From: Methanoregula sp.
GTDB lineage: Archaea; Halobacteriota; Methanomicrobia; Methanomicrobiales; Methanospirillaceae
NCBI GenBank assembly: GCA_026394595.1
Contig: JAPKXX010000042.1
Coordinates: forward strand, 1-41,794
Reading direction: 5' to 3'
DNA: 41,794 bases
Part shown: positions 8,419 to 12,971 of the stretch, one piece after another
Layout of the letters: each line of letters begins with the position of its first letter
How positions within the stretch are numbered: the first letter of the stretch is position 1
The notes under the pieces: model-generated
Told to the model about the DNA's origin: nothing
Database searches by the model: none
The model's input: only the letters and a program-made list of their open reading frames with translations
Program-made: the position numbers and the translations under genes

Positions 8419-8543
8419 CAGGGTACTATTATTCCATTCCCCTACAAATGGCATTCGATGATCGTGACTTACAGCAATTGTTAAAAACTAAGTTTTTCTA
8501 TTCGAAGAACCCATTATTTGATAACGAAGCAAGGGTGTTTTTT

Positions 8544-8813
8544 ATGCCGACCAATCCCATTCTGATCGTCTATACGCTCGAGCACTGTCCAAACTGCGAC
8601 GTGCTGAAGGCTTATTTAAAAACAAGCGGGAATCGATTTACCGAGAGAGATCTGTCCACGGCGGAATCCCTTACGGAACTGCGAGTCAACGGCATTTTTG
8701 TTTCCGAAGCACCGGTTCTCCAAAAGGGGGATGAGTTTTTCACAACCTCAGACCTCTTTGATAGCGGCAAAGTGGATGCAGAGCGGATCACCAGGTTTGT
8801 TTCAGGTGCATGA
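8544..8813 (+). CDS. Glutaredoxin/NrdH-like redox protein
   Basis: An 89-residue thioredoxin-fold protein with one CxxC site, in YTLEHCPNCDVLKAYL, the spacing and place expected for glutaredoxin/NrdH proteins. The cis-proline region shows as VSEAPVLQKGDEFF. The ORF track starts at 8448, but the ATG at 8544 has AAGGGTG about 6 nt upstream and begins exactly at the fold. Its stop overlaps the nrdD start (ATGA). Methanogen class III reductases such as that of Methanosarcina barkeri use an NrdH-like protein as reductant, so supplying electrons to NrdD is the likely role. Confidence 0.85.
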   Translation: MPTNPILIVYTLEHCPNCDVLKAYLKTSGNRFTERDLSTAESLTELRVNGIFVSEAPVLQKGDEFFTTSDLFDSGKVDAERITRFVSGA

Positions 8814-10999
8814 TGGGACTACACGAGACCAAACAGAAAACTCTTGACGGCGTTTATATTCCTCTCCTCCCCCCCGTCCGGACAACTGACGGGCATATCA
8901 TCGACTATGATCGCAACCGGATCGTCCGGCAGATTGTGGATGAGACCCGGCTTGTCGAGACTTTCTATGGCTATGAAGGCGCAACCGAGGAACAGGCGCA
9001 GCAGATTGCCCGCGAGGTTGAGCAGCGGATTCAGGGACTAGGATTAAAATCCCTTTCCGGTCCCCTGATCCGCGAGATTGTAAACATGGCTCTGCTTGAG
9101 AAGGGGCTCGTGCAGTACCGGAATGTCTGTACCCGTGTGGGTACACCGGTATTTGATGCCCACCTGATCGATGTTGGGAGGGGTTTTGAGGCGCATGACA
9201 ATGCAAACCTCCAGGAGAATGCTGAAACTTCACATAAGAAAAAAGCTGACAAGATCAGCAAAGAACAATATCTCCTCCAACTCCCACCCGATCTTGCAGA
9301 TCACCACCTTTCCGGCGACTTGCACATCCATGATCTCGAGTACTTTGGCACCCGCCCGTTCTGCCAGGACTGGGACCTCCGATATTTCTTCTATTACGGT
9401 TTGATGCCCGATGGGAACGGGACGAAGGCATCCGTGGCAGGACCAGCCAAACGTGCAGAGGTGGCAATCCTCCACGCGGTCAAGGCGCTGGGATCCGCGC
9501 AGACGAACTTTGCCGGCGGACAGGGATACTATAACTTTCTCACATTCCTTGCGCCATTCTTTGAGGGACTCCCCTACGATGAGATCAAGCAGATGATGCA
9601 GATGTTTGTATATGAAATGACCCAGATGATGGTCGCCCGCGGAGGCCAGCTTGTCTTCTCATCGATCCAGCTCTCACCCGGTGTCCCGTCTCTCTGGCTT
9701 GACAAACCCTGCGTGTACAAAGGTAAGATATGGGACGGAAAATCAGCACCCCGCCACACGTATGGAGAATTCGAACGAGAGGTGCGCCTGCTCTTCAAGG
9801 CAATTATGGAAGTGATGCTTGAGGGAGATTACTGGGGTAAACCCTTCAGCTTCCCAAAACCGGAGATCTCGATAGAGCCGGACTTCATGAACGAGCGCGA
9901 AGAGTTCAACCGTGCACACCCCGATCTTCCCACATACCGAGAACTCTACCTGCTCACCTTTGAACTTGCAAGCAAATTCGGCACCCCTTACTACGACAAC
10001 CAGCTTCCTGAATACCGCGGTGCGGGAAAGGGTATCTCCTGTTATCAGTGCTGTGCGTACCAGTTCTCGGCTGTTGCGGACAAGGACTCCGACTTCGATA
10101 AAAAACTCTTCTTTGAAAACGGCAGACACTTCTCCATGGGGTCGTGGCAGGTAGTATCCGTGAACTGCCCTCGGGCAGCGTACAATGCGGAAGGTGATGA
10201 CACACGCCTGTTTGGTGAGCTCAAGGCACTCATGGATGAATCTATCGAGATATTTAAGATCAAACGGCGCTGGATGAACCTTATCCGCGCGCACAGCAGG
10301 ATGCCGTTTGCGATGCAGCGCCCCAAAGATCCCAATACCGGTGAGCGGGGTGCGGTTGCAGTAGATCTTGAAGGGCTCGTTTATACTATCGGGGTTGTCG
10401 GTGTGAATGAAATGGTGCAGCATCACACTGGCAAGCAGATCCATGAATCCAAAGAAGCATTTAAACTCGCTATCCGTGCAATGACCGAAATGGAGCTCTA
10501 TGCAAAGAAGCTTTCCCAGATAAACAATATGACGATAGCACTCGCACGCACCCCGGCGGAGACAACCGGGCAGCGCTTTGCTGTTGCTGACCTGCTCAAC
10601 AAGCGGTACCACGATTATGCAGTGAAAGTGATCAAGGGGGACCTTGATTATACGCTCGGGATGCTGGGAAAGACCTCCGACCTTCCAGTGTATTACACAA
10701 ATGGAACTCACGTGGCGCCAGGAGCAAATGTCCCGCTCACGAAGCGCATGGAAATCGAACATGTCTTCTTCCCAATCGTCGACGGCGGCAACATATTCCA
10801 TATCTGGCTGGGTGAGGCGCGCCCTGATCCACGGGGCTTGTATGACATGGCGATGAAGTTATGCAAGAATACCCAGATCGGATATTTTGCGTTCACCCGC
10901 GACCTTACTGTTTCGCTCCGTCAGTTTCATGAGTACCGATCTGAGAAGAAGACAATCCCCCAAGGGGTAGCGTCAAATACTCTGGTCGGGGCATCATAA
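8810..10999 (+). CDS. nrdD: Anaerobic (class III) ribonucleotide reductase large subunit, lacking the usual C-terminus
   Basis: Clearly NrdD: it has LSGDLHIHDLEYFGTRPFCQDWDLR, ARGGQLVFSSIQLSPGVPS, GTPYYDNQLPEY, a cysteine-rich GISCYQCCAYQ, MGSWQVVSVNCPRAAY and DLPVYYTNGTHV. These belong to the ten-stranded barrel that reduces ribonucleotides with a radical. The oddity is the end. After the family block KNTQIGYFAFTRDLTV, normal proteins continue with two CxxC zinc pairs and the glycyl radical motif (RVxGY). This one reads VSLRQFHEYRSEKKTIPQGVASNTLVGAS and stops. No cysteine pair or RxxGY appears in any forward frame before the next gene, so a simple one-base frameshift does not explain it. No nrdG activase is in the window. 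Function as a conventional glycyl radical enzyme is therefore uncertain. Confidence 0.93.
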   Translation: MMGLHETKQKTLDGVYIPLLPPVRTTDGHIIDYDRNRIVRQIVDETRLVETFYGYEGATEEQAQQIAREVEQRIQGLGLKSLSGPLIREIVNMALLEKGLVQYRNVCTRVGTPVFDAHLIDVGRGFEAHDNANLQENAETSHKKKADKISKEQYLLQLPPDLADHHLSGDLHIHDLEYFGTRPFCQDWDLRYFFYYGLMPDGNGTKASVAGPAKRAEVAILHAVKALGSAQTNFAGGQGYYNFLTFLAPFFEGLPYDEIKQMMQMFVYEMTQMMVARGGQLVFSSIQLSPGVPSLWLDKPCVYKGKIWDGKSAPRHTYGEFEREVRLLFKAIMEVMLEGDYWGKPFSFPKPEISIEPDFMNEREEFNRAHPDLPTYRELYLLTFELASKFGTPYYDNQLPEYRGAGKGISCYQCCAYQFSAVADKDSDFDKKLFFENGRHFSMGSWQVVSVNCPRAAYNAEGDDTRLFGELKALMDESIEIFKIKRRWMNLIRAHSRMPFAMQRPKDPNTGERGAVAVDLEGLVYTIGVVGVNEMVQHHTGKQIHESKEAFKLAIRAMTEMELYAKKLSQINNMTIALARTPAETTGQRFAVADLLNKRYHDYAVKVIKGDLDYTLGMLGKTSDLPVYYTNGTHVAPGANVPLTKRMEIEHVFFPIVDGGNIFHIWLGEARPDPRGLYDMAMKLCKNTQIGYFAFTRDLTVSLRQFHEYRSEKKTIPQGVASNTLVGAS

Positions 11000-11083
11000 C
11001 CGCACGGTTCGCACCATACAGTGACTTATAACCTAACATTCCCGACCATTACTTTTTTTACATTAAAAACGAGAGCATGAAGT

Positions 11084-11827
11084 ATGCAGCGACACTATGC
11101 CCCCTTTATCATTCTCATCATCGCCCTTGTTCTTACCTGCGGCTGCTTCGGTTTCCAAGCAAAATCCCAGAACGAACAGGCGGCTACGACGGTCCAGCAA
11201 ACGGTGACAACAATTGCCCCTGTAGTGCCAACCGTGATTACCGTTGAAACGACAGTAACTCCTCAACCGACACAGGATCCGTTCCCGAACGCGCTGAAAT
11301 TGAAACAGACGTTCAATTTCAGCAGTGGTAAGAGCGCAAGTGAGGGAACGGTATACCGGTACTGGATGAATGACACCTATCAGCTCTTTGATCCACGGGA
11401 AACACGCTATGTGACAAAATATCCTGCTTCGGGAAACAAATACCTGATAATCTTTGTTAATGTGGTGAACCGTGGCACCACCCGTACGTTCCCACCGAGG
11501 TCATCGAATATTATCCTCCATTATGATGGTCAAAACTATTATCCAGATTCTACTCATCTCCTCCCGATGACTGAGCGGAATAAAGACGCGCCACCTGAGA
11601 TTATTCGGATCGGCCAGATCGAGTTCTTCCATAAACTGTACGGTTCTGAATATGTGGAGGATTTTGGATATTCCCATGGAATGGAGCAGGCGTATCTGAA
11701 TCCAGGGGAAAGCAATGCTATAGATGGCTATATCGTCTATGAAGTTCCCGCTTCCCTGACCCCGGAAAAGACCTATGTTGAGATCGGTTTCAACTCCCAA
11801 GCAAGTGCAGTCTGGAAACTTGGATAA
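11084..11827 (+). CDS. Exported lipoprotein-like protein of unknown function
   Basis: A 247-residue secreted protein. The N-terminus is a signal peptide (HYAPFIILIIALVLTCGCFG) with a lipobox-like cysteine, so it is probably lipid-anchored on the outer face of the membrane. A Thr/Pro/Val-rich spacer of about 45 residues follows, then a beta-rich domain (FNFSSGKSASEGTVYRYW, NKYLIIFVNVVNRGTTRTFPP, NPGESNAIDGYIVYEVP). The pattern resembles the DUF4352 or related immunoglobulin-like extracellular domains, but I do not assign a function. The gene just downstream encodes a paralogue of the same domain on a different anchor. A run of seven T residues in the gap after nrdD suggests a transcription break there. 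Confidence 0.8.
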   Translation: MQRHYAPFIILIIALVLTCGCFGFQAKSQNEQAATTVQQTVTTIAPVVPTVITVETTVTPQPTQDPFPNALKLKQTFNFSSGKSASEGTVYRYWMNDTYQLFDPRETRYVTKYPASGNKYLIIFVNVVNRGTTRTFPPRSSNIILHYDGQNYYPDSTHLLPMTERNKDAPPEIIRIGQIEFFHKLYGSEYVEDFGYSHGMEQAYLNPGESNAIDGYIVYEVPASLTPEKTYVEIGFNSQASAVWKLG

Positions 11828-11899: not shown

Positions 11900-12971
11900 A
11901 TGCCGTTCTGTATATCCTGTGGGAAAGAGATCTCTAGCCGCGCAAAGTTCTGCGGACATTGCGGGACTCCAGTCGATCATGCAGGAACCCTGCCGCCTGT
12001 TCAGGTCCCCCCACAGGCTCCACCCTCACCACCTCCTCTCACCTCTCCACCACAAGCCCCGATAAATACCCCCGCCGCTCCCCCAATTCCTCCGCTTGTG
12101 CAGCCTGACTACGAGCCCGCCCCATTTATAGACACCCCGCGTTCACCTATACCTCAGTCTCTTGTTGTACCCCCACCCCCAACCCCGTCATCTAATGTTC
12201 CTGCAACGGTGCCAGTGTCATCTAAAAACAAAAAGGTTATTATCGCTATTTTCGCGATTCTTATTGTCATAGTCGGTGTATATGTGTTCGTCTTACCAAA
12301 AATTTCCAGCATTCAGGTCGCTGGTTCTGGAATATCTGGCTCTACGACCCCGTCTCCTTCTATAACAACTGCCCCTCCGGCAACAACAATTCCCACCCCG
12401 ACACCTGTCCCGACACCGATACCCGAATTATTCCCGGGTGCGCTCTCAATCAGGACATGGTATAACTTCAGTAGTGGTAAGACCGCAGGTCAGGCTACTG
12501 TCTACGACACATGGGTTAATGGTACATACCTTTGGCACAAACAGTGACAACAAATGGTATATCCAGAATCCACAAGAGGGGAACAAGTATCTCCTTGTTT
12601 TTATCAATATCGTGAACCGCGGGGATACCCGGGTATGGTACCCAAAGTCAAGTAGTATCGTCGTCCACTACAACAACCAGCTATACAACCCCGACCCCTT
12701 GCATTATATACCTGAAATATCTGGAGGCAATACCGAGGCAACCCCCCTTGAGATCGGTGAGGTGCAGTACCGCCATAACCTGTTCAATACAGAATATGTG
12801 CAGGATTACGGGCTTTCGCATGGGACGAAATCGGACTTCGTCTATCCGGGCGAAAGTAATGCGATTGACGGGTATCTTATTTATGAAGTGCCTGAATCAC
12901 TGACCTTGGATAAAACTTATGTTGATATTGTATTCAATGGTCAGGACCGTGCAGTCTGGAAAGTTGGATAA
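11900..12971 (+). pseudogene. Zinc-ribbon, single-TM protein with extracellular domain; frameshifted paralogue of the upstream lipoprotein
   Basis: Two ORFs (11900-12547 and 12438-12971) together make one protein. It starts with a double CxxC zinc ribbon (CISCGKEISSRAKFCGHCG), then a long Pro-rich stretch, a transmembrane helix (VIIAIFAILIVIVGVYVFVL), a Thr/Pro linker, and a domain paralogous to the upstream lipoprotein (WYNFSSGK versus FNFSSGK; LVFINIVNRGDTRVWYP versus LIIFVNVVNRGTTRTFPP; GESNAIDGYLIYEVPESLT versus GESNAIDGYIVYEVPASLT). The frame changes near 12531-12533 (a CCTTT run): removing one base restores GTYLGTNSDNKWYIQNP and a full alignment. The second half is well conserved, so the shift is recent, a sequencing error, or a programmed slip. 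Confidence 0.75.

Follow-up and report, generated by a model that had tools for sequence, protein, structure and literature searches.

The window, by which we refer to the whole analysed stretch of 41,794 nucleotides (Methanoregula sp., contig JAPKXX010000042.1 of assembly GCA_026394595.1), contains a gene for an NrdD homologue of the class III (anaerobic) ribonucleotide reductases together with a small glutaredoxin-like gene, which overlaps the start of nrdD on its upstream side. The features of this locus are as follows:

8544–8813, plus strand: glutaredoxin-like (NrdH-like) protein with CPNC (PF00462, E 8.7e-5)
8810–10999, plus strand: nrdD, open reading frame of 729 amino acids, putative barrel subunit (TIGR02487, PF13597)
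8876–9118, plus strand: N-terminal ATP-cone, residues 23–103, allosteric activity site (PF03477, E 6.7e-5, just under the gathering score)
9200–9208, plus strand: NxN flap motif N131-A132-N133 (both Asn in 28/28 ungapped split rows, the flap being kept in all ungapped rows of split and fused enzymes)
9362–9364, plus strand: active-site Cys185 in PFCQDWD (no exception among 29 split and 30 fused homologues)
10040–10054, plus strand: CYQCC motif, containing the finger-loop cysteines Cys414-Cys415 (invariant in the same split and fused enzymes)
10559–10561, plus strand: Glu584 in TPAE, aligned with Glu581 of the Prevotella copri enzyme (8p23; invariant in 59/59 homologues)
10913–10996, plus strand: end of the barrel, with the split point and a short lineage-specific tail, SLRQFHEYR... 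(conserved tail motif)

The glutaredoxin-like reading frame extends from 8448 to 8813, with the ATG at 8544 as its likely start; the NrdH-like protein is the likely electron donor of the reductase discussed here. The nrdD reading frame ends in ...KNTQIGYFAFTRDLTVSLRQFHEYRSEKKTIPQGVASNTLVGAS*, with the stop located 27 residues past YFAFTRDLTV. It scores 471 bits against TIGR02487 (cut-off 326), aligning with model positions 2–530 of 581, and matches the Pfam family NRDD (PF13597) over positions 1–512 of 562; since the coverage of both models ends early, only the C-terminal zinc/glycyl domain is missing, as the original prediction had held. Its statement that no forward frame up to the next gene encodes the missing segment can be extended to all six frames of the whole window: the glycyl domain is absent from every one of them, the sole RVxGY-like string (minus strand, 13316) is unrelated, and a separate glycyl radical domain protein (GRD; see below), used as tblastn query, has no significant match anywhere in the window. 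The tail had been described as unrelated to the usual C-terminus, which is right in so far as the zinc/RVTGY domain itself is missing, but roughly the first 10 of its residues can still be aligned with the point at which the zinc domain begins in fused enzymes (TVSLRQFHE vs. TVCMDDFHV). Residue 702, corresponding to the first zinc-ligand cysteine, is Cys in 30/30 fused and Ser in 21/29 split enzymes. A local frameshift in nrdD was considered and rejected, given that the end point is common to the order and that no GRD remnant is present in the window. Further downstream, the overlapping reading frames 11900–12547 and 12438–12971 look like a single secreted-protein gene with a frameshift near 12540, of which an intact paralogue is found at 11084–11827.

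Only one NrdD was found in the window's own genome, for which reason a decayed allele beside another functional copy was rejected, and the shortened form is conserved across the order Methanomicrobiales, as which the order was recognised by its named genera Methanoregula, Methanolinea, Methanoculleus, Methanospirillum, and Methanofollis. The same NrdD is present in 40 of 41 related genomes, and the 29 correctly extracted relatives share the end point (...GYFAFTRDLTV[S]L+QFxEYR...) with the tail motif [S/T/A/C]L+QFxEYR, followed by 10–30 variable residues. In nearly every genome of the order, NrdD matches stop at model position ~529, with one divergent fused copy (G025) within the order; other families of the same phylum possess full-length NrdD, with matches reaching model position 580–581. 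In a maximum-likelihood tree, from which the wrongly extracted row L022 (branch length 10) was disregarded, the split barrels group in a single clade (support 100/100) that is nested among fused NrdD, and this clade points to one origin of the split. In many of the NrdD relatives (e.g., G028, G033, and G027), the protein is interrupted at one or both of two places, about query residues 184–188 and 407–430, by long insertions that keep the frame and are probably inteins, resulting in open frames of 1161–2008 amino acids.

A glycyl radical enzyme normally has its radical glycine on the same chain as its active site. In the genomes of the order, the NrdD family search yielded a second match site, covering model positions 522/540–581 in open frames of mostly 121–149 amino acids, and the window's genome (G000) encodes such a glycyl radical domain on another contig, alongside a candidate activase:

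G000:C110:23725–24084, minus strand: GRD, glycyl radical domain protein of 120 amino acids with RVTGY and CxxC pairs, same assembly as the window
G000:C98:1487–1996: NrdG candidate, TIGR02495 above cut-off, assigned by family score only

The GRD matches the C-terminal part of the NrdD models (PF13597, 507–562 of 562; TIGR02487, 540–581 of 581), which are its best families, while no match to the pyruvate formate-lyase (PFL) family was found. An alignment of 19 members (120 columns, 79% mean identity) reveals C29, C32, C41, C44, C53, C60, C71, C74, C79, C82, and RxTGY as invariant. The C-terminal ~45 residues constitute a canonical glycyl domain, whereas the N-terminal ~75 residues form an additional extension that is rich in Cys and resembles zinc ribbons only weakly. 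CPLC..CPEC serves as the metal-binding site and RVTGY as the radical loop; RVTGY, WN, and the cysteine pairs are all kept. C53 and C60 lie outside the CxxC pairs and do not vary, not even among the viral copies that were aligned; they may serve as a metal ligand or a redox pair. An AlphaFold model of the GRD alone is of moderate confidence (mean pLDDT 71), with the radical loop disordered (below 50), and Foldseek returned no significant fold match for this moderate-confidence model. The GRD gene is unlinked to nrdD and resides in a conserved neighbourhood of its own, tiaS–deoxyhypusine synthase–pyrF–GRD–cbiZ-like–rpa, where the cbiZ-like gene usually starts a few bases past the GRD stop; the cbiZ-like gene and pyrF were found at 97 of the 107 GRD loci examined, seven of which are the unlinked Methanosarcinaceae-like ones treated below. 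A split intein joining barrel and GRD was rejected on the grounds that the ends carry no intein-like sequence.

Among 149 genomes of the order, each at least 80% complete, the truncated barrel and the GRD were each detected in 133; both halves are present in 131, neither in 14, and only one in four. Hence, of the options that the original prediction had offered, a glycyl domain encoded as a separate protein elsewhere is the one that is supported. The 14 genomes devoid of both halves are all sampled members of one genus (g28), and the four discordant ones are fragmented assemblies: in G192, which is without a GRD match, the contig stops inside pyrF, directly before the expected GRD position; in G232, likewise without a GRD match, the pyrF match is absent too; and G205 and G237, which are without the barrel, are 82–85% complete. 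Fisher's test for the presence of barrel and GRD gives 9e-16 with genomes that are related; given this relatedness and a signal that stems largely from one joint loss, the result is best taken as a single clean event on top of a broad co-retention. NrdG2 (TIGR02495) exceeds the cut-off in 129/149 genomes and never does so in g28, where the best matches (E 1e-13 to 1e-19) stay below it. That the GRD might serve another glycyl radical enzyme was considered and rejected; a PFL-like barrel, that of a glycyl radical enzyme resembling pyruvate formate-lyase, occurs in just 1/149 genomes (G022:C58:18232-20364), leaving NrdD as the only plausible partner.

The split coincides with a structural boundary. 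In P. copri NrdD, residue 671 is the last of the core, and residues 676–739 form the glycyl radical domain, which contains a structural zinc site and for the most part moves as one rigid unit; Glu581 of the core is in contact with Tyr712, the neighbour of the radical Gly711, while substrate and glycyl radical domain are bridged by the NxN flap (PMC11226230). The natural split point corresponds to this core/GRD domain boundary, and the contact residues are kept on both polypeptides. The two CxxC pairs on the GRD, together with a barrel-side cysteine that is mostly replaced by Ser, are what would be expected if the GRD folds independently.

Taken together, we consider it highly probable, judging from sequence, that the two genes encode a naturally split, obligately two-subunit class III ribonucleotide reductase, with the barrel as the large subunit and the GRD as the radical subunit. 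According to the proposed mechanism, NrdG would create the glycyl radical at Gly95, and the GRD would dock on the barrel at the usual site of the fused domain; its RVTGY loop would insert beside the finger-loop cysteines to generate a thiyl radical, which would then reduce the nucleotide, with the NrdH-like protein as the likely electron donor. Contrary to a two-subunit enzyme stand the unlinked genes, which give no operon support for the pairing, a correlation that is largely due to the joint loss in one genus, and the mediocre model of the GRD. The window protein has the class III barrel with its catalytic cysteines and is a class III homologue of likely class III function, in which one of the usual defining features, a radical glycine on the same chain, is absent.

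Compared with fused NrdD (TIGR02487; e.g., P. copri 8p23 and the Methanosarcina-type L050/L051), the split system has the same barrel, ATP-cone, NxN flap, catalytic cysteines, GRD-facing Glu, RVTGY loop, zinc-binding CxxC pairs, and NrdG-type activase; in the fused enzymes, however, the GRD is the C-terminus of the same chain, whereas in the split system it is encoded by an unlinked gene and possesses the extra Cys-rich N-terminal extension. Ribonucleotide reductases in two polypeptides are also known from class II, where the Pseudomonas aeruginosa enzyme is split into NrdJa and NrdJb (PMC4520616), the second chain comprising the C-terminal zinc-finger region (PMC9669993), but this is a cobalamin enzyme whose split-off chain is without a radical site. 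In class I NrdA/NrdB, the radical is likewise stored on one subunit and used by the other, although there a ferritin-like protein holds a tyrosyl/metal radical that acts over a long range, and no glycyl loop enters the barrel. In the open-access literature, to which our search was confined so that a subscription paper could exist, no description of a split or truncated class III NrdD was found.

Among the closest known parallels of the GRD is YfiD (GrcA), a protein of ~14 kDa that is a second copy of its enzyme's C-terminus and repairs oxygen-cleaved pyruvate formate-lyase; phage T4 carries the YfiD-like Y06I, and spare parts for further glycyl radical enzymes might exist (PMC8683613). The GRD could, accordingly, be mainly a spare part replacing an oxygen-damaged glycyl domain instead of a standing subunit, a reading that we regard as improbable, yet as the best of the alternatives. 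The size and layout of the GRD indeed resemble those of YfiD: both are free-standing small copies of a C-terminus, with a glycyl loop completing a barrel, and both are also found in viruses, which carry the GRD alone just as T4 carries Y06I. Moreover, a diverged relative exists beside an intact fused NrdD in two Methanosarcinaceae-like genera. However, the GRD is related to NrdD and not to PFL, it has metal-binding cysteine pairs, and, apart from the divergent copy in G025, no intact fused NrdD that could be repaired was found in the order; because of this, the GRD is obligatory in the order if the enzyme works at all. While YfiD and Y06I mend the damaged copy of a complete enzyme, the GRD would instead complete the barrel as a subunit.

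Very improbable is a barrel that survives only as a remnant, dead or repurposed, in a lineage relying on its class II reductase. It would agree with the class I/II reductase family PF02867 being present in 129/149 genomes, including that of the window (class II reductase on G000:C59) and all of g28, which has no split enzyme and always possesses a class II reductase. Against it stand the 20 genomes without PF02867, which are distributed over several families and all carry both halves; among them are G218, a single contig of 1,949,073 bp, and G243, a single contig with an estimated completeness of 99%. No ribonucleotide reductase other than the split enzyme was detected in these 20 genomes, where it presumably has to work. 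Furthermore, dN/dS is below 0.03 for the barrel (a rough value, with synonymous sites near saturation) and 0.04–0.09 for the GRD, the catalytic residues are invariant, and NrdG and the GRD are retained alongside the barrel. These findings contradict the original suggestion of a dead enzyme.

Still less probable is a radical chemistry that operates without a glycyl radical, e.g., by direct thiyl formation. It would account for a barrel polypeptide that itself is without the radical glycine, but the genomes encode NrdG as well as a conserved RVTGY protein, both of which disappear jointly with the barrel; with activase, glycyl motif, and catalytic cysteines all in place, the different chemistry that had originally been envisaged is unneeded. 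An assembly or sequencing error that removed the C-terminus of NrdD has a practically negligible probability, for although the draft assembly of the window genome is fragmented into 121 contigs and has a completeness of 83.5%, the same end is conserved in all families of the order, single-contig genomes included, which excludes an artefact and makes the originally proposed resequencing unnecessary.

If the split, two-subunit enzyme is real, the DNA synthesis of a complete order of methanogens depends on a two-part enzyme, which in some species is the sole reductase. It would offer a natural system for studying, each on its own, how NrdG installs the radical on a free protein of 13 kDa and how docking, transfer, and repair proceed; for annotators, it would mean that a "truncated" NrdD in Methanomicrobiales genomes is no defect.

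Free-standing glycyl domains extend beyond the order. In two Methanosarcinaceae-like genera (g51, g38; L168–L173), diverged GRD-like proteins in frames of 114–131 amino acids are found beside an intact fused NrdD—a coexistence encountered only for these relatives—and, by analogy with YfiD, they look like candidate class III spare parts. A further free-standing GRD-like copy (L174), from the likewise Methanosarcinaceae-like genus g59, looks decayed. It is plausible that a stand-alone glycyl domain came first and that the barrel's own domain was lost later.

A scan of IMG/VR revealed GRD-only genes on eight virus contigs (L199–L203, L205, L209, L210) representing about seven viruses, with L209 and L210 looking identical over the compared stretches. 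The viral proteins share 41–62% identity with the host protein and, in those aligned, the same invariant cysteines; genes for terminase, portal, baseplate, and Sak4-like proteins are present on the contigs that were sampled. On none of the eight contigs, which are up to 64 kb long and may be fragments, was an NrdD barrel found by a search that, as controls, recovered the complete fused NrdD of another virus (G321) and of G131 as well as the barrels of G000 and G218. Searches of phage and plasmid records with the GRD returned only C-termini of fused NrdD, none covering 80% of the query. The viral GRD is thus apparently an auxiliary gene that would supply only the radical subunit. On balance, we lean slightly towards a wider picture in which the whole order possesses a dissociable and exchangeable radical subunit, which may have originated from a stand-alone spare-part domain after the barrel's loss of its own, and in which the viral GRD may serve to complete the host barrel, to re-arm it, or to take it over. 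A different arrangement is seen on the virus contig L211 (IMGVR_UViG_3300029825_000423), which encodes a complete fused NrdD of 763 amino acids that is 64% identical to the window protein.
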